Origin: Verrucomicrobiales bacterium
GTDB lineage: Bacteria; Verrucomicrobiota; Verrucomicrobiia; Verrucomicrobiales; Verrucomicrobiaceae
Direction of reading: 5' to 3'
DNA length: 26,517 nucleotides
Assembly (NCBI GenBank): GCA_003453085.1
Contig: DMMK01000597.1
Span: 1-26,517 of the forward strand
The notes under the pieces are model-generated. The model ran no database searches. It was not told where the DNA came from and saw nothing but the letters and a program-made list of their open reading frames with translations. Positions 2,703 to 23,480 of the stretch are shown here, in pieces; position 1 is the stretch's first letter, and the number at the start of each line of letters is the position of its first letter. A program made the translations under genes and the position numbers.

Positions 2703-5700
2703 ATGCACATCAGCCTTATGAAACGGGCTGCGTTCCTGTGCGCGTCGGCCATGGCCTTCGCGTCCACCGCAGCTTTTGCCCAGGAGTGGACCAGCCTCAA
2801 GGTTGGCGAACTCGCCAATTTTTCCTTTAGCCATGCCCATCTGCCAGATGGACGCTTCTTGTTTGGCACGGAGGGCAAAGCCTTTGTTCAGGACACCTTC
2901 GGGGCGGCTGCGGCCACTCAGGTGGCTAATCCAACAAGCATCCTTTTGGATCCATCCTTCGTGATCAGCCGTTCGGGCACACAGGCGCTGGTGGGCGGTG
3001 GCGGCTTTTCCGGCCCATCCGGCGTGTATCTTTTTGATCCTTCCTCCCCAACCACACCGCTGGTGACTCCAGCCCTGGCAACCCTGCAAAATTACAATGC
3101 CGTGTTTTGGAAGCATCCCACCTCTGGCCGTGAAGGCTGGCTCATCGGCGGAGCCAATGCGGGCTTTTCCAGTAACCTCACGTTTGTCTCCACGGACGGC
3201 CAGACCGTCCGGGCGTTGACGGCAGCTCTGAGCGCCTTTTCTGGCGGCTTGGCGACCGATGCGGAAGGCAATGTGTTCGTCAGCCTCGCGGACTTTGATG
3301 AATCGGTTAACAACAAGGTCATCAAATTCACCGCCGCCCAGGTGGATGCCGCTGTGGCCGCCGTGCTGGTGGATGAAGCTTCGTCCCTGACGGTGGCCGT
3401 TTCGACACCGGTTTTCACTGCCGATGCCTCGAGCAGTCTGGCAGCGGATTCTGCTGGTCGTCTGTGGATCACAGGCTACCAGATCAATCACCTCCAGGCC
3501 TATGACCCTGCCACCGGAGCGAATCGGCGGTTCACACCGGACCATCCGGCCCTGGCGAATGCCGGTGGCCCCGCTGCATATGCAGTCAAAGTCTTCTCCA
3601 AAGATGCGACGGAGTATGTGAGCTTCCTGGCCAATGATAGCTTTTACACCACCACATCGGACCTGGTGCTGGGCTATCGTCCGACATCGGAGCTGATTGT
3701 TCGTGCGGCCCAGATCACCACGGCCTCGCAGTCCGTCTCTGAAGGGGACGCGAGCACGACGACCGTGACGGTGACACTGACGCCTGCCGCTTCTGCGGAA
3801 GTCACGGTGCCAGTCACCCTGGCTGGAACGGCGACGCTGACCAGCGACTACACCACCACGGCTCCGGCTTCGCTGGTGTTTGCCGCCGGTGAGACCAGCA
3901 AGACCTTCGACATCACCGTGGTCAATGATTCCCTCAAAGGCGAAGGCAATGAAACGGTGGCCGTGACTCTGGGGGAACCTACCCCGACGGCGTTGGCGGG
4001 CCTCGGTGCGCTGAACTCGGAAAAGTTCACGCTCACGATTCAGGACAATGATCCGCTGCCGATCATTGGGTTTGCCTCCGCTACCCGCACTGTCAATGAG
4101 GCCGATGGCACGGTGAATGTGACGGTGAACGTCTCCCCCACCGTGACCCAGACGGTGACGGTGCCTCTGGTGATTACCGGCACGGCCACGAGCGGTACGG
4201 ACTTTACGACCGTTAGCGAACTGGTGATCGAGCCGGGTGATCTCACGAAGACCCTGGCCATCCAGGTGCTGAATGATACGACCACCTTGGAAGCGGATGA
4301 AACCGTCATCGTCAATTTTGGCGCCCTGACGGCCAATGAAATCGGACTGGGCCTGCCTGCGACCCGCCAGTTTACCCTGACAATCCAGGATGATGAGAAC
4401 AAGGCCCGCATTGCGGCTAACCAGGAGTTTGGCACACTGCGTGTGGGTGCTGCGCTGAATGTGTCCGTTCTGACTTTTGGCGGCACGGCGGTGAAATGGT
4501 CCGCCAAAGGCCTGCCTCCAGGGCTGAAGATCAATGCCAATGGCACGATCACCGGCACGCCGACAGCTTCCGGTGAGTATGACCAGGTGATTCTCACCGC
4601 GACCAATGCCTATGGTGTGAGCACCTCCGTGGTGCTGCTGATGAATGTGGAAGCATTCCCCGCGGGCGCAGTGGGCACCTTCAGTGGCCTGGTGGACCGT
4701 GCTGGCAGCGTAACCGGCGGCCTCGGGGCCTCCGTCACGGTGACCACCACGGCCAAGGCCACTTACACTGGCAAAGTGGTGATCGGCAAAAAGACCTATG
4801 CCATCAAAGGCAACCTGGATGCAGCGACGGCAAACCCCACTGGCTCTAGCGATCTGAAGGTGGGCAGCACCATCCAGCCGCTGAGCTTTACTCTCAATGC
4901 CACGACCGGGGCTTTCACTGGCACTTTGCCGGAAGGGGCGACCCTGGCGGGCTGGCGCGCTCAGGGAGCGACGACCCGCACGGGCATTTATAACTTTCGC
5001 GCAGCCCAGTCCGGATCTCCGGCTGCCACCGTGCCCCAGGGGGCCAGCTATGGCAGCCTGAAGCTGTCGCCAAAGGCCGTGGCAACGGTCACTGGCGTGC
5101 TGGCAGATGGCAGCAAATTCACCGGCAGCAGCCCTCTTTCCATCCAGGGTGATGTGGTCCTGTATCAGGCCCTTTACACCACGGTGGGCAGTCTGACAGG
5201 TCGAGTGAATCTGGCCGATGATTTGGCCCATTCCATCACGGGCACGCTGACCTGGAGCAAGCCTGAGCAGGCGAAAGGACCGATCTATCAGGACGGGTGG
5301 GAATCTCCCATCACCCTGGTGGCTCTGGGCGGAAAATATCGCCCGGCGGGCGGCGCTACGCTGCCTCTGGATGCACAGGAGTCCGCCTCCGATAATGCGG
5401 AACTGGTGCTGCAGGATGGCGGCATCGAAGCCGTGGGCGGAAATGCCAATCCGAAGACCTTTGGTGTGCGAATTGTCAGCATCACCAGCGCGACGATGGT
5501 CGCTCCGCAGAAGCTGAAGATTGTCAATGCGACGGGTGCCTTCAGCGGCAGCATCACACTGGGCGAAGGGGCTGCCCGCAAGGTTATCCCGGTGCAGGGA
5601 ATGCTGGTGCCGGATGCCAGCACGGCCAATGCCTTTGACAGCGAAGGTTTCGGCTATTTCCTGCTGCCCTCGGCCGCGCTAGGCGTCACCCGCTCGGGCG

Positions 5701-17239: not shown

Positions 17240-18181
17240 ATGCCTTCGATCCTCAAATCGCTCAGCCTCATCGCCGACCCGACTCGCGTGCGCATTCTGC
17301 TGTTGCTGAAGCAGGAGGAGCTGAGCGTGGCGGAACTGCAGGAGGTGCTGGCACTGCCGCAGTCCAATATTTCTGCCCAGTTGGCAAAGCTGAAGTCGGC
17401 TGGGCTGGTTACGGACCGGCGTAGTGGCAAAAATCGGCTCTATCAGTTGGATGAACCTAACACCAAGGAAAAGGCCGCTCACGAGCACTTTATCGCCCTC
17501 ATGGAGGCGGCCGGCGCGGAACTCAAAGAAGCCAAAAAAGACGATGCCGCCCTGAAGGTGGTGTTGCGGAAACGCATGCGCTCCGCCCAGGCTTACTTTG
17601 ATACCCTGGCGGGCAAGTTTGGCCGCCACTACATCCCCGGCCGTTCCTGGAAGGGGCTGGGGGAGACGCTTTTAAAACTTCTGCCTCCACTGGTCATTGC
17701 CGACCTCGGGGCAGGGGAGGGCACGCTGTCCCAGTTGCTGGCGCAGCGGGCGCAGAAAGTCATCGCGGTGGACAACAGCGAAAAGATGGTGGCCTATGGG
17801 GCTGACCTCGCCAGCAAACACGGCTTTGCCAATCTGGAATACCGACTGGGTGACATCGAAGAGCCGCCCATCGAGCCTGGCAGCGTGGATTTGGTTTTTC
17901 TCAGCCAGGCTCTCCACCACGCGCTGAATCCGGAGCGCGCCATCCGGGCCGCCTTTGCCATTTTGAAGCCGGGTGGGCGCATTGTGATCTTGGATCTGCT
18001 CAAGCATCAGTTTGAAAAAGCACGCGAGCTCTATGCCGATGTCTGGCTGGGCTTTTCCGAGGCTGAACTGCACGAAATGCTGGCCAAGGCAGGCTTTCGC
18101 GAAGCGGAGACAAGTGTGGTCCACCGCGAAAGCCAGAGCCCGCATTTCCAGACCGTGCTGGCGCTGGCTAACAAAGGATGA
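17240..18181 (+). CDS. ArsR-family regulator fused to a SAM-dependent methyltransferase
   Basis: The 313-residue protein has an N-terminal winged-helix ArsR domain (residues 1-75: LIADPTRVRILLLLKQEELSVAELQEVLALPQ, then SNISAQLAKLKSAGLVTDRRSGKNRLYQL). It lacks the ELCVCD metal-binding motif of classical metal sensors. A helical linker (~76-130) leads to a class I methyltransferase: motif I IADLGAGEGTLS at 153-164, acidic IAVDNS at 175-180, DLVFLSQALHH at 217-227 and LKPGGRIVILDLL at 242-254. ArsR-methyltransferase fusions occur in many bacteria, often near genes of methionine/SAM metabolism. The methyltransferase domain may sense SAM or SAH, or act on a small molecule; which is unknown. It is followed at 58 bases by a thioredoxin-like gene. 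The ATG has no Shine-Dalgarno. Confidence 0.9.
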   Translation: MPSILKSLSLIADPTRVRILLLLKQEELSVAELQEVLALPQSNISAQLAKLKSAGLVTDRRSGKNRLYQLDEPNTKEKAAHEHFIALMEAAGAELKEAKKDDAALKVVLRKRMRSAQAYFDTLAGKFGRHYIPGRSWKGLGETLLKLLPPLVIADLGAGEGTLSQLLAQRAQKVIAVDNSEKMVAYGADLASKHGFANLEYRLGDIEEPPIEPGSVDLVFLSQALHHALNPERAIRAAFAILKPGGRIVILDLLKHQFEKARELYADVWLGFSEAELHEMLAKAGFREAETSVVHRESQSPHFQTVLALANKG

Positions 18182-18831: not shown

Positions 18832-20979
18832 TTAGGCCGCCAACGTTCCGCGCTGTGCCAGCGTGTGGGTGAAGGGGCTGGAGGCAGCCAGATTGTACTG
18901 GCGGATGGCGGTGGCCCAGAAAGGAGCCAGCTCGTGATCACGTGCAGACCACAGGCGGTAGTGCAGATCGGTGACAGTCTCCGTATCGTGGATCATCGCT
19001 TTGATCTCCTGAGGGTTCAGGCATTGCGGGCCTTCGTGGATGAGGCGGGAGGCCAGTTGATCCAGATAAGCACGGGAGACGTGGATGTTTTTGCGACGGC
19101 GCAGCAGGCTCACATGGAGGCCGTTCACATACGGATCCAGGCAGACCTGCAGCAGGCCATGGTGCTTCTCGAGCTCAGGCGGCAGGTGGATGCGGCCTTT
19201 GATCTCCAGAAGGTTTTCATTCATCGTGGCCAGCACTGTGGGCGGGTCCGTTTCTTCGGGCGTCGTGAACAGCCCAAAGCGGAAGCCTGAACTGCCGCCG
19301 GAGACGAGCAAGGCCACAGGGATGGCCAGAAAAAGGGCACCCAAGATGGGGCTGATCCAGATGAAAAAGCTGTGGGAGACAAACCACCCAATCACACCCC
19401 ACACCACGGAGATGACGGTCACTGGCCAGAAGGTGAAAAACACCTCCGCCCAGTCCACACCACCATCGATTTTGCGTCGTTGGGTCACCCAGCGCACGCC
19501 TTTGCCCAGGACCGTGTACACCACGAACTGGGAGTGAAAGATCATCAGCACCGGTGCCATCAGCGTGAAGACCACCGTATCGGCCATGCTGCTGACAAAG
19601 GTCATCAGCCGCCGCTTCAGGGGCTTGAACAGGCGGCCTGTGATCACCTCATCCAGCAAGATGGTGACCTTGGGCAGGAAGATGAGCATGATGGTCACAC
19701 CTAACAAAATTTGCTCAGCCAGGATCGACTGCGGATTGTCATGCGGCAGGCGTGTCGCAGCCAGGAACGTGGAGAAGATCAAGAAGAAGAACCACAGCAG
19801 GCTGCTGGCGTAGCTCAGGATGCCGTGAAGGAAATTTAGTCGGCTCATCGGATGCCAGCCTTTGGCAAACAGCAGCCAGAAATGCTGCATGTTCCCCTGG
19901 CACCAGCGGCGGTCACGCTTCAGCATGTCCACCAGCGTCGGCGGGCCTTCTTCATAGCTGCCGCGGTTGGTGTTCAGCAGGCGCACGGCGTAGCCCGCCT
20001 TGCGCATGAGGGCGGCCTCCACAAAGTCATGGCTCAGGATGTGGCCACCGAAGGGTTCCTTGCCGGGGAGGGCAGGGAGCGCACAATTTTTAATGAAGGG
20101 CTCCAGACGAATGATGGCATTGTGCCCCCAGAAGTTGGCCTCACCGCACTGCCAGTAGTCCAGGCCTGCCATGAATGGCGGGCCATACAGGGCCTGGGAA
20201 AACTGCATCACGCGGCCCAGCAGAGTTTCCGCCCCGATCTGTTTCGGGAAAGTCTGCAGGATGCCGATGCCAGGATTCTTCTCCATGATGCGCACCATGC
20301 TCGTCAGCAGGCCGCCGGACATCAGGCTGTCCGCATCCAGCACCAGCATGTAGCGGTAGCGCTTGCCCCAGCGGCGGCAGAAGTCGCTCACGTTGCCGCT
20401 CTTGCGGTTGATCGGCTTGCGGCGCTTGCGGTAGAAGATGCGGCCAAAGGCGTTTAGCTGGCGGCACAGCTCCAGCCAAGCGGTTTCCTCTTCGATCCAC
20501 TGGCTCGTCTGGTTCGAGTCGCTGAGGATGAAAAAGTCATAGTTTTTCGACTGGCCCGTCTGCTCCAGGGAAAGGTAAATGGCCCGCAGCCCCTCAAACA
20601 CACGCGTCACATCTTCATTGAAGACGGGCATGATGATGGCGGTGCTGGCGGTGATGTCTTCCTCCATGTCCTCAGGCTTCAGCGTGCGCCAAAGGTCCAG
20701 GGGATCCGGCTTGGGCCGGTTCATCAACCACACCCCAAACAGGGCCGTCCAGAAGCCGACATTGAGCTGGTAATACAGCGGCACAAACACCGCCAACAGC
20801 CCCCATTCGGACCAGCGCATGCCGTGCTCCGAAAGGTAAACATACATCAGCCACACACCCACGATGGTGCCTAGGCCGACGAATGAAAAGAAGGTGGCGC
20901 GCCGTGTACGGGCGATGCGTGGCGGCGGCATGCCGGCCGTGAGATTGAGATTGGCCGTGCTGGCCCCGATCATGCTCAT
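18832..20979 (-). CDS. opgH: OpgH/MdoH-type glucan glucosyltransferase
   Basis: The 715-residue inner-membrane GT2 enzyme matches OpgH, which polymerises glucose from UDP-glucose into osmoregulated periplasmic glucan. Two membrane segments (~29-49 and ~58-87) precede the catalytic domain: TAIIMPVFNED at 113-123, FILSDS at 150-155, MLVLDADS at 211-218 (DAD metal/UDP site), SHDFVEA at 316-322 (catalytic base region) and KRDRRWCQGN at 354-363 (R-x-x-R-W acceptor motif). Several membrane helices follow from ~383 to ~570. Escherichia coli OpgH is ~847 residues with a long cytoplasmic N-terminus; here that part is short, and a separate 192-residue membrane protein is encoded immediately upstream with an ATGA overlap. 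The usual partner opgG is not adjacent. The ATG at 20979 lies in that overlap, and an ATG two codons later is equally possible. Confidence 0.93.
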   Translation of the reverse strand: MSMIGASTANLNLTAGMPPPRIARTRRATFFSFVGLGTIVGVWLMYVYLSEHGMRWSEWGLLAVFVPLYYQLNVGFWTALFGVWLMNRPKPDPLDLWRTLKPEDMEEDITASTAIIMPVFNEDVTRVFEGLRAIYLSLEQTGQSKNYDFFILSDSNQTSQWIEEETAWLELCRQLNAFGRIFYRKRRKPINRKSGNVSDFCRRWGKRYRYMLVLDADSLMSGGLLTSMVRIMEKNPGIGILQTFPKQIGAETLLGRVMQFSQALYGPPFMAGLDYWQCGEANFWGHNAIIRLEPFIKNCALPALPGKEPFGGHILSHDFVEAALMRKAGYAVRLLNTNRGSYEEGPPTLVDMLKRDRRWCQGNMQHFWLLFAKGWHPMSRLNFLHGILSYASSLLWFFFLIFSTFLAATRLPHDNPQSILAEQILLGVTIMLIFLPKVTILLDEVITGRLFKPLKRRLMTFVSSMADTVVFTLMAPVLMIFHSQFVVYTVLGKGVRWVTQRRKIDGGVDWAEVFFTFWPVTVISVVWGVIGWFVSHSFFIWISPILGALFLAIPVALLVSGGSSGFRFGLFTTPEETDPPTVLATMNENLLEIKGRIHLPPELEKHHGLLQVCLDPYVNGLHVSLLRRRKNIHVSRAYLDQLASRLIHEGPQCLNPQEIKAMIHDTETVTDLHYRLWSARDHELAPFWATAIRQYNLAASSPFTHTLAQRGTLAA

Positions 20980-21554
20980 CCGAGAAGAAAGTAAAGATAA
21001 CCCAGCACACCGCCCACGATGCTGACCAGAATGGAATAACGCAGAAGGGGGTGGCGGCCCAGGCGGTCGAAAGTGTCTTCGGCCACTTCGGAAACAATGC
21101 CCAGGTCCATGTCACGCGGGGTCATTTTGCTGACCTGCATGCCAGGGCCGGAAGTGCGCACGGCCGCGCGCATCGCCTCGGTCATATCCTTGGGCAGATT
21201 TTCCTTGTCGAGGAAGAAGTTAGGCCAGCGCGCAGGCCCGCCGCTGAGGTGAAAGCCCAGCCTGCCCGCCGCTTCCAACTGGGAGGCGTTCAGGTTCATG
21301 TCGCTGTAGATCGCCGCCAGCCACTCGTGCATCATCACCCGCGCCTGTTCGATGCTGTGCGCCGTGGGCGTGCGTTTGGGATCTTTCTTGTGAGCATCTG
21401 CCGCACGCCGTAGAGTCTCAAGAATGAGCTGAGTTCGGCGGATACGGTTGTGCAGTTGGTAGGAACGGAAATAGTCGGCGAGACGGGCATAAGCCTCGTT
21501 CCACTCGACTTCCGACCCCGTTGCGGGTGCGAATTGAATATTGACAGCTTCCAT
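20976..21554 (-). CDS. Small tail-anchored membrane protein coupled to opgH, unknown function
   Basis: I do not recognise this 192-residue protein. It is mostly helical and charged (HNRIRRTQLILETLRRAADAHKK at 35-57) and has one hydrophobic segment at 171-191 (LRYSILVSIVGGVLGYLYFLLG) ending at the C-terminus. It would therefore be a cytoplasmic domain with a C-terminal membrane anchor. Its stop overlaps the opgH start by 4 bases, a strong sign of co-translation. In E. coli OpgH the extended N-terminal cytoplasmic domain precedes the first membrane helix, so this protein could be a detached counterpart. That is inference from layout, not from seen similarity. It could equally be a dedicated OpgH regulator. 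Confidence 0.75.
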   Translation of the reverse strand: MEAVNIQFAPATGSEVEWNEAYARLADYFRSYQLHNRIRRTQLILETLRRAADAHKKDPKRTPTAHSIEQARVMMHEWLAAIYSDMNLNASQLEAAGRLGFHLSGGPARWPNFFLDKENLPKDMTEAMRAAVRTSGPGMQVSKMTPRDMDLGIVSEVAEDTFDRLGRHPLLRYSILVSIVGGVLGYLYFLLG

Positions 21555-21625: not shown

Positions 21626-22573
21626 TCATCCGTGTGGAGAGAACTTCACCTCACGGCAGGCCGGTTTGCCCAGCGGGTTTCGGCAGCCCCAGTGCCAGCG
21701 GTCTGGCCGCGTGACAAAAGGCTCCAGCCGTGTCCCTTCCAAAATGCGGAACTGCCCACGCAGCTCCCCGCCTTCCTGCACGTTCACGGATCGCGCGGCG
21801 ATACGTCCGTCCAGCGTGCCACCTGCCTGGATGGTGATCGTCCCCTCGCAGGAAAAGTCTCCTTTGGCATGGCCCCACACCCGCATCGCACGGCTGATCA
21901 CCGGATAAAGAAAATCAACTTCTGCACCGGAGGCGATGTCCAGCAGGTCGCAGGCCACATGCTCCGCGCACAGCCCTCGTGTGGTGATGATCTGGATCGC
22001 GGGCGGGCTTTCATACTCGTCCGGGTCCAGCCGCTCCAGCTTTGCCAGGCACACAGGGCAGGTGGGATGGGCATAGGTCCCTGCCGTGGCGATAGTGAAA
22101 AAGAGATCACTGCGTTCAGGCGGCAGCGCTTGCAAAACGGTGCAGAGCACGGCGGCATCCACCGCCTCGATACGATGCTCCTGCGCCGCCAGAGTGGCCG
22201 AATGACTGAAGCCCGCCGGCGCTACCAGGATGCCACGGGTGTTCTTGGCCGTGGTCACCTCCTGGGCAAAGCGTGTCACGCTCTCCGGCGTCGCTCCCCA
22301 TTCATTCCAGGCGGAGATCTTCACCAGCGCCCGCTGGGGGTAGATGGTGGTGGGCTGTTCGATCATGCCAAAGACCAGCGATCCGTCTGGCAGCACTCGG
22401 GAGCCCGCCAGCTCACACCCCGCATGGGCGGCGATGCCCCGCACCACCTCCGCCAGCCGCAGCCAGTCCAGGCTTGCGATCAGCTCCACGCTCCACTCTC
22501 CCGGTCTCAGCACATCCGCCTTCTCCGTCATGGAGAGGCCGGCTTGACTCAGCATGGCATAAGGGTTGGACAT
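21626..22573 (-). CDS. Mrr/PD-(D/E)XK-like domain fused to cysteine clusters and a bactofilin-like beta-helix
   Basis: The 315-residue protein starts at the ATG at 22573; a GTG at 22588 would add 5 residues. Residues ~35-145 follow the Mrr-type restriction-endonuclease-like pattern: LDWLRLAEVVRGIAAHAG, then LPDGSLVFGMI, ALVKISAW, a helix, and TRGILVAPAGFSHSATLAAQ-EHRIEAVDAAVL, close to the Mrr GxFVTTSxFSxxAxxxA-I-LIDG ending. The Asp is present (PDG), but the usual E/Q-x-K becomes L-V-K, so catalysis is doubtful. Cys172/Cys175 (CPVC) and Cys202/His205/Cys208 could form a zinc site. Residues ~238-278 (GDFSCEGTITIQAGGTLDGRIAARS-VNVQEGGELRG) have the short Gly-turn strands of bactofilins (polymer-forming cytoskeletal proteins). 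The role is unknown. A DNA-binding or membrane-associated scaffold is one possibility. Confidence 0.65.
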   Translation of the reverse strand: MSNPYAMLSQAGLSMTEKADVLRPGEWSVELIASLDWLRLAEVVRGIAAHAGCELAGSRVLPDGSLVFGMIEQPTTIYPQRALVKISAWNEWGATPESVTRFAQEVTTAKNTRGILVAPAGFSHSATLAAQEHRIEAVDAAVLCTVLQALPPERSDLFFTIATAGTYAHPTCPVCLAKLERLDPDEYESPPAIQIITTRGLCAEHVACDLLDIASGAEVDFLYPVISRAMRVWGHAKGDFSCEGTITIQAGGTLDGRIAARSVNVQEGGELRGQFRILEGTRLEPFVTRPDRWHWGCRNPLGKPACREVKFSPHG

Positions 22574-22643: not shown

Positions 22644-23480
22644 TCACATGAAATCCAGCCCCAGGTCCAGAGCCCGTGCCGAGTGCGTGAGCGCCCCGAC
22701 AGAGATGGCATTCACCCCCGTGGCCGCGATGTCGCGGATCGTCTCCAGCGTGATTCCCCCGCTGGCTTCCAGCCACAGCCGTCCGGCATTCAAGCTCACG
22801 GCTTCACGCAGCCGCTCCGCCCCCATGTTATCCAGCAGCAGCATGTCCACACCGCGCAGGGTCAGAAATCCGGCCACTTGCTCCAGGTTGTCCGCTTCCA
22901 GTTGAATCCGTGTGCCAGGGCGTTCCGTCCGCACCCGGTCGATCGCGGATTGCAGCTCGGCCAGCGTGCCGTGTGCCGCCAGATGATTGTCCTTCACCAT
23001 CACATGATCATAGAGGCCCATGCGATGGTTGGTTCCACCTCCCGCTTTTACGGCCGCCTTTTCCAGCAACCGCCAGCCCGGCGTGGTCTTGCGGGTGTCC
23101 CAGATCTGCACCGCGTGCGGCTTCACTGCCTCCACATAGCGACGCGCCTGCGTGGCCACCCCCGAAAGGCGCTGCAGGAAATTCAGAGCCGTGCGCTCCG
23201 CCGTGAGGATGCCGCGTGTTGGGCCGCTGATCTCCAGCAGCACATCGCCAGGTACAAAGTCCGCACCATCTTGCATCAAGGGCGTGACAAGGATGCGCGG
23301 GTCAATCTCATGAAACACCCTCAAAGCCACCTCCATGCCCGCCACCACCCCTGGCTCACGCGCCGCGATCCGTGCCCGGGCCGTGGATTCGGCAGGTACG
23401 AAGTAAGTGGCCGTGAGATCTCCGCTGCCCACATCTTCGGCAATGGCGGCGCGGATGAGCTGTTCTGTGCTGGCTTCCAT
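22644..23480 (-). CDS. nadC: Quinolinate phosphoribosyltransferase (decarboxylating)
   Basis: NadC converts quinolinate and PRPP to nicotinate mononucleotide and CO2 in de novo NAD synthesis. The 278-residue product has all family blocks: EDVGSGDLTA at 15-24, ERTALNFLQRLSGVAT at 95-110, DTRKTTPGWRLLEKAAVKAGGG at 128-149, HRMGLYDHVMVKDNH at 152-166, EADNLEQ, and the terminal SGGITLETIRDIAATGVNAISVG barrel segment. Length is typical (~280-300). It begins at the ATG at 23480, 21 bases after the stop of the upstream chimeric gene, with no Shine-Dalgarno (preceding bases CCTCC on its strand). nadA and nadB are not in the window. Confidence 0.97.
   Translation of the reverse strand: MEASTEQLIRAAIAEDVGSGDLTATYFVPAESTARARIAAREPGVVAGMEVALRVFHEIDPRILVTPLMQDGADFVPGDVLLEISGPTRGILTAERTALNFLQRLSGVATQARRYVEAVKPHAVQIWDTRKTTPGWRLLEKAAVKAGGGTNHRMGLYDHVMVKDNHLAAHGTLAELQSAIDRVRTERPGTRIQLEADNLEQVAGFLTLRGVDMLLLDNMGAERLREAVSLNAGRLWLEASGGITLETIRDIAATGVNAISVGALTHSARALDLGLDFM

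Follow-up and report, generated by a model that had tools for sequence, protein, structure and literature searches.

A bactofilin-like beta-helix within the split zinc ribbon of an apparently inactive Mrr-derived protein of Verrucomicrobiales

Introduction

What does a restriction-endonuclease-like domain do in the same polypeptide as a cytoskeletal polymer module? This question is raised by a gene on the minus strand (positions 21626..22573; ATG at 22573, stop at 21626; 315 amino acids) of a 26,517-nucleotide stretch of contig DMMK01000597.1 (hereafter the window) from a Verrucomicrobiales bacterium (assembly GCA_003453085.1). A first-pass annotation, made from the letters alone, had described the product as an Mrr domain with an incomplete active site followed by cysteine clusters and a bactofilin-like helix, and had suggested a catalytically dead anchor of DNA or the nucleoid. 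Our analysis points to a probably dead Mrr domain and a zinc ribbon that is split by an inserted bactofilin. This is a genuine, conserved domain architecture, built of known kinds of parts, of which we found no description and whose function we infer.

Domain Architecture of the Fused Protein

The product matched the Pfam profiles Mrr_cat (PF04471; residues 33-145, 24.6 bits, cut-off 21) and Bactofilin (PF04519; residues 213-275, 29.5 bits, cut-off 27.9), each of which was also matched by 36 of 36 aligned homologues (E <= 1). Both folds were present in the predicted structure (mean predicted local distance difference test, pLDDT, 84.5) and both matched solved structures, with 85 of 101 residues of the Thermus thermophilus bactofilin (6rib) being matched by the window model. 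Because the Pfam scores, the homologues, and the modeled folds agree, the fusion of the two domains is more than chance, and an artefactual join of two genes was ruled out, as a single protein covers at least 90% in 119 of 120 listed homologues. The open reading frame (ORF) with its restriction-endonuclease-like fold and bactofilin-type beta-helix therefore stands as the first-pass annotation had read it, but the helix extends by structure over residues ~190-280 rather than 230-290, and the two parts are not arranged in a row, since one is inserted behind the other within a zinc ribbon.

On the minus strand of the window, the N-terminal tail (residues 1-26; 22496..22573) is followed by the Mrr/PD-(D/E)XK-like domain (residues 27-165; 22079..22495), delimited by Pfam, structure, and alignment columns, the first zinc-ribbon knuckle (residues 170-180; 22034..22066), in which C172 and C175 are invariant, the inserted bactofilin beta-helix (residues 190-280; 21734..22006), and the second zinc-ribbon knuckle (residues 291-315; 21629..21703), in which W293, W295, C297, C306, and H314 are invariant in the 36 homologues. 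Two subfamilies of such fused proteins are distinguished here, the window's own (type 1) and a second one (type 2). The profile NA-iREase1 (PF22722) was reached by the type 2 member P0149 (30.1 bits), while the type 1 member P0001 stayed at 14.1 bits, below the cut-off of 27. No relevant match was found for five proteins searched against NCBIfam profiles.

Like known bactofilins, such as 6rib and BacA (2n3d), the fused protein scores above the curated profile cut-off and has the beta-helix fold, although its polymerization is only predicted; unlike them, it has its helix enclosed by a zinc ribbon and is joined to a presumably dead nuclease fold. RPB5 (1dzf), also among the closest known systems, is an RNA polymerase subunit and is without a beta-helix. 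No Mrr-bactofilin architecture was found in the titles or abstract starts of open-licence PMC papers on bactofilins or polymer-forming cytoskeletal proteins; among open-licence PMC papers, no title announced a bactofilin study in Prosthecobacter or Verrucomicrobia and none was found that joins "bactofilin" and "zinc ribbon"; and the main text of PMC10945521 mentions neither Verrucomicrobia nor restriction. These searches agree with the earlier remark that no described system joins the two modules, although both domains had previously been tagged automatically in databases.

A Zinc Ribbon Interrupted by the Beta-Helix

The class-wide search returned, for some genomes, weak matches limited to the Mrr domain and the first cysteine pair. 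L042 and L041 encode an N-terminal hydrophobic stretch, an Mrr domain, and a contiguous Zn_ribbon_Top1 (36.0 and 30.5 bits; cut-off 32). Compared with the relatives of L042, the fused proteins keep CPxC directly after the Mrr domain and have the second ribbon half ~120 residues further on, with the bactofilin in between; this second half reads WGCPGYPRCK in the fused protein P0135 and WGCRNYPRCK in the relative P0155. These Mrr_cat plus Zn_ribbon_Top1 "restriction system" proteins (e.g., P0155 and L042) have the domain order and the motifs around the Mrr domain and both cysteine pairs in common with the fused protein, and judging from their sequences they are likely its parent. They are called parents below; a search with L042 returned 1637 proteins at E <= 0.001, 120 of which were used.

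The two ribbon halves of P0135, a type 2 protein, matched complementary parts of Zn_ribbon_Top1 (positions 3-16 with 13.8 bits, and positions 23-36 with 16.2 bits, or 18.7 bits in the whole protein), and splicing out the insert gave a match over positions 3-36 of 30.2 bits (cut-off 32; no shuffled control), approximately the sum of the halves, as against 41.1 and 40.4 bits for two intact parents. Of the four other type 2 splices, three matched the same profile at 15.2-15.8 bits. Among the three type 1 splices, one matched DNA_ligase_ZBD at 18.5 bits. By pattern, both cysteine pairs are present in 148 of the 153 fused proteins scanned, with 8 (123), 7 (4), 5 (13), or 4 (8 proteins) residues between the last two cysteines; the five misses are P0040, which has alanine before the cysteine, and four apparently truncated or frame-shifted proteins. 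Of the two clusters in the first-pass annotation, CPVC is indeed invariant and has as its partner the pair C297...C306, which had gone unreported, while CxxHxxC (residues 202-208), present in only 1 of 36 homologues, was ruled out as a metal site. Three short strands surround the cysteine pairs in the type 2 model (170-173, 288-291, and 301-303), compared with two strands (180-182 and 294-296) and a short helix in the window model. At the level of sequence, the comparison shows that the bactofilin beta-helix is an insertion between the two cysteine pairs of a topoisomerase-type zinc ribbon.

An empty site was seen in genome G374 of the same order, where L068 (1378-2085, plus strand) encodes an Mrr domain devoid of the catalytic motifs and, after it, CPTC...CQNYPGC without an intervening helix. 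It may represent either a pre-insertion form or a later loss.

Loss of the Active Site and Apparent Loss of the Membrane Anchor

The active-site alignment comprised 131 type 1 proteins, 18 type 2 proteins (17 with letters at these columns), and the 120 parents; P0168 and the truncated or frame-shifted fused proteins P0031, P0138, P0150, and P0151 were left out. The catalytic Asp and the catalytic Lys are each present in all 120 parents but in none of the 131 type 1 and 17 type 2 proteins. The catalytic Gln is found in 119 parents and 15 of the 17 type 2 proteins, its place being taken in type 1 by Lys (126) or Arg (5). The window protein has V67, K85, and S87 at the Asp, Gln, and Lys positions, respectively. 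Because K85 aligns with the Gln, the lysine noticed in the first-pass annotation is not the catalytic one, and the active site, correctly described there as incomplete, is more broken than its "L-V-K instead of Q-x-K" implied. Since both Asp and Lys are absent from every fused protein aligned, the alignment supports a protein that is Mrr-derived but not an Mrr nuclease, and is in all probability catalytically dead, as had been surmised. Next to the missing Asp, F68, M70, and E72 do not vary within type 1. Loose-pattern matches to DGGxD (6 fused proteins) and QxK (2) sit at other positions. By eye, other-family Mrr plus zinc-finger proteins of the class (L043 904-2487, L045 1642-3333, and L044 1886-2896) are also without DGGxD and QxK.

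The parents differ further from the fused proteins at their N-terminus. Proteins without the anchor motif were dropped, namely 16 of the 121 parents, one of the 15 type 1 proteins, and two of the 16 type 2 proteins. In the remainder, hydropathy indicated a transmembrane (TM)-like N-terminus for 103 of 105 parents and for none of the 14 type 1 proteins; most type 2 tails (11 of 14) have fewer than 19 residues and score 0 by default. The tail of the window protein is without a TM-like segment, and its residues 1-20 are of low model confidence. Among bactofilins, as stated in the consulted sections of PMC12448750, many have an N-terminal membrane-targeting peptide or TM helix, and N-terminal TM helices are predicted in ~3.2%.

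Distribution and Origin

Full-span matches came from 57 genomes in an evenly drawn set of 288 from the order; 55 of these belong to the window's family (f1), one to f3, and one to f4. Most f1 genomes sampled thus carry the fused gene. Among the 66 listed f1 genomes, the fused gene is present in 55, in two pieces in one, and without a full-length copy in 10 (counted by hand), and the 57 match-less genomes that are not listed may include further f1 members. A relatives search found the gene in 28 of 35 genomes of the window's genus, and a class-wide sample in 6 of 285 genomes, all f1. By source name, the carriers are Prosthecobacter, Brevifollis, and Verrucomicrobiaceae or Verrucomicrobiales metagenome-assembled genomes (MAGs); the named hosts of type 2 are two loci, both from Verrucomicrobiales MAGs. 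The Prosthecobacter homologues include P0006 of P. fusiformis and P0011 of P. debontii. A remnant matching residues 235-315 only was seen in genome G011 (L026, ~4015-4254), one of the 10 f1 genomes without a full-length copy.

In a tree of the Mrr part without L068, 33 fused rows stood apart from 36 parents (support 99/96). With L068, 25 parents were placed on one side (100/100), and a single fused clade was not rejected (approximately unbiased test, p-AU 0.526). One origin of the insertion fits the tree without L068 and is neither demonstrated nor rejected with it. The helix-only tree, which is unrooted, carried long-branch and few-column warnings, and was built from bactofilin stretches cut by hand, separated 31 inserts together with 13 zinc-ribbon bactofilins from 12 classical ones (98/97) and did not reject a single origin of the inserts (p-AU 0.426). 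The zinc-ribbon bactofilins of the class (e.g., L022 and L030), which stand with the inserts, differ from the fused proteins in their N-terminal CxxC pairs, longer helix, and lack of an Mrr match, and do not form one group in the tree. Adjoining genes for a classical and an N-terminal-CxxC bactofilin recur in the class (L022, 4328-5497 and 5549-6193; also L030, L037, L048, L035, and L040).

Possible Function

Lost catalytic residues, together with a filament-type module inside a zinc finger, suggest that the protein may serve as an adaptor on a bactofilin scaffold, and we lean, with some reserve, toward reading it as an adaptor subunit, itself catalytically dead, within the bactofilin cytoskeleton. 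The four invariant cysteines would still bind zinc, which would close the split ribbon; if so, the ribbon could act as a clasp that keeps the helix next to the dead Mrr domain. The helix would join or cap bactofilin polymers, replacing the lost membrane anchor, and a client, either a protein or DNA, would be brought to the scaffold by the Mrr fold. A mutation in Thermus bactofilin, F105R, reportedly blocks polymerization, and the F105R mutant is named in the title of the entry 6ria. In the structural alignment, L271 of the window protein falls on the Thermus Phe with chain index 105; 34 of 36 homologues have Leu here and the other 2 have Met, and 17 of 17 type 2 proteins have Leu at the matching place. 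A hydrophobic residue at this position is one clue that the helix may be polymer-competent. Three genomes (G001, G017, and G054) also encode one classical and one zinc-ribbon bactofilin.

Several observations weigh against this adaptor. Plain Foldseek gave 6rib an E of only 0.086. None of three type 1 splices (P0001 and P0017 among them) matched Zn_ribbon_Top1, and one of five type 2 splices did not, so that the ribbon in the window's subfamily rests on the invariant cysteines and the link through type 2. The absence of the fused gene from 10 of the 66 listed f1 genomes indicates that it is dispensable, and in G456, an 89% complete draft, it is the only bactofilin found. The ribbon may also block the ends of the predicted polymerizing helix. 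Finally, comparison of 29 loci from 27 genomes revealed no conserved operon pointing to a partner or client.

A lesser but real possibility, close to the idea of the first-pass annotation, is that the client is DNA: binding of the chromosome by the dead Mrr fold and the ribbon would then tie the nucleoid to the bactofilin scaffold. In the parents, the Pfam descriptions of these domains are restriction endonuclease and topoisomerase DNA-binding zinc finger. The nearest precedent for bactofilins linked to chromosome machinery that we met is in Myxococcus xanthus, where, according to the parts of PMC5703909 consulted, the BacNOP bactofilins rely on PadC to position ParABS, and PadC-YFP causes condensation of the Escherichia coli nucleoid; there too a bactofilin scaffold is coupled to a DNA-related adaptor, but PadC is a separate ParB-like protein, whereas adaptor and helix are one polypeptide here. 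Net charge, a crude measure compared over 129 type 1 proteins, 16 type 2 proteins, and 120 parents, speaks against DNA: type 1 is acidic overall (mean -7.7; type 2, +3.8; parents, +10.0, the latter also with a basic N-terminal region), its ribbon halves are less basic (+2.1; type 2, +4.1; parents, +5.4), and its Mrr domain is no more basic (-2.9; type 2, -1.1; parents, -2.8). Moreover, the invariant F68, M70, and E72 would suit a protein partner as well. Only tentatively can it be proposed that one polypeptide links the scaffold to the chromosome or to foreign DNA, a polymer anchor having taken the place of the membrane anchor and the clasp coupling DNA binding to filament assembly.

It is unlikely, in our judgment, that the helix no longer polymerizes and acts as a rigid spacer or dimer module in a soluble dead-nuclease regulator with no cytoskeletal link. 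Both ends of the helix are tied into the ribbon, G456 has no other bactofilin found, and the residues matched to 6rib would suit such a module as well; the conservation of Leu or Met at the Thermus Phe position, in both subfamilies, argues the other way.

If the adaptor reading is true, a nuclease fold has been recruited into the bacterial cytoskeleton through three changes that can be read from the sequence: catalysis was lost, the membrane helix disappeared, and a metal-binding finger took in a polymer module. The fused gene offers a concrete deletion target in Prosthecobacter for probing bactofilin roles, and a clear example from nature of an entire domain lodged within a zinc ribbon.

Genomic Neighborhood and Selection

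Downstream of the fused gene on the same strand lie a gene for a 192-amino-acid uncharacterized protein without a Pfam match (20976..21554) and, overlapping it by 4 bp, an opgH-like gene with Pfam glycosyltransferase families (18832..20979; the name opgH is from the first-pass annotation). The fused gene is not, as had been stated, just before opgH, since the 192-amino-acid gene intervenes. This order is common to five of five close relatives, which would fit an envelope-growth factor acting with opgH, but we regard such a role as very improbable: in 16 genomes with both, the opgH-side gene adjoins the fused gene in 5 and lies on another contig in 11 (weaker evidence in draft assemblies than a measured distance), and all 18 genomes searched keep it, with identities of the 192-amino-acid protein as low as 47%, including G008 and G121, which have no full-length fused gene. 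An opgH/envelope operon was rejected on these grounds, and the proposed tie to envelope growth found no support. A working type IV restriction or defense nuclease is scarcely conceivable, since despite the Mrr fold and the PADLOC matches of parent P0155 (PDC-S02, 45.7 bits; type IV models, 29.9) and, weakly, of fused P0135 (15.6), no PADLOC model was matched by P0001 or P0113 at E <= 0.01, and an active nuclease was rejected on the catalytic-column alignment.

Upstream by 70 bp is nadC (quinolinate phosphoribosyltransferase by Pfam; 22644..23480, minus strand), present at this position in four of five close relatives. Of the 29 loci, 14 have near the fused gene a member of one membrane-protein family without a Pfam match, which in the seven of these viewed is encoded downstream and on the strand of the fused gene; the remaining loci vary, and no function follows from it; neighbor family F1 was ignored as it resembles antisense frames of the fused gene. 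Rough ratios of nonsynonymous to synonymous substitution against the five relatives, with synonymous sites close to saturation in four pairs, were 0.03-0.19 for the fused gene, 0-0.03 for opgH (first part), 0-0.06 for the 192-amino-acid gene, and 0.05-0.08 for nadC (four pairs). The fused gene exceeded opgH and the 192-amino-acid gene in five of five pairs and nadC in three of four, which indicates purifying selection that is looser than on opgH.

Elsewhere in the window (17240-18181, plus strand), one ORF joins by eye two domains, which we take to be an ArsR-type regulator and an S-adenosylmethionine-dependent methyltransferase.
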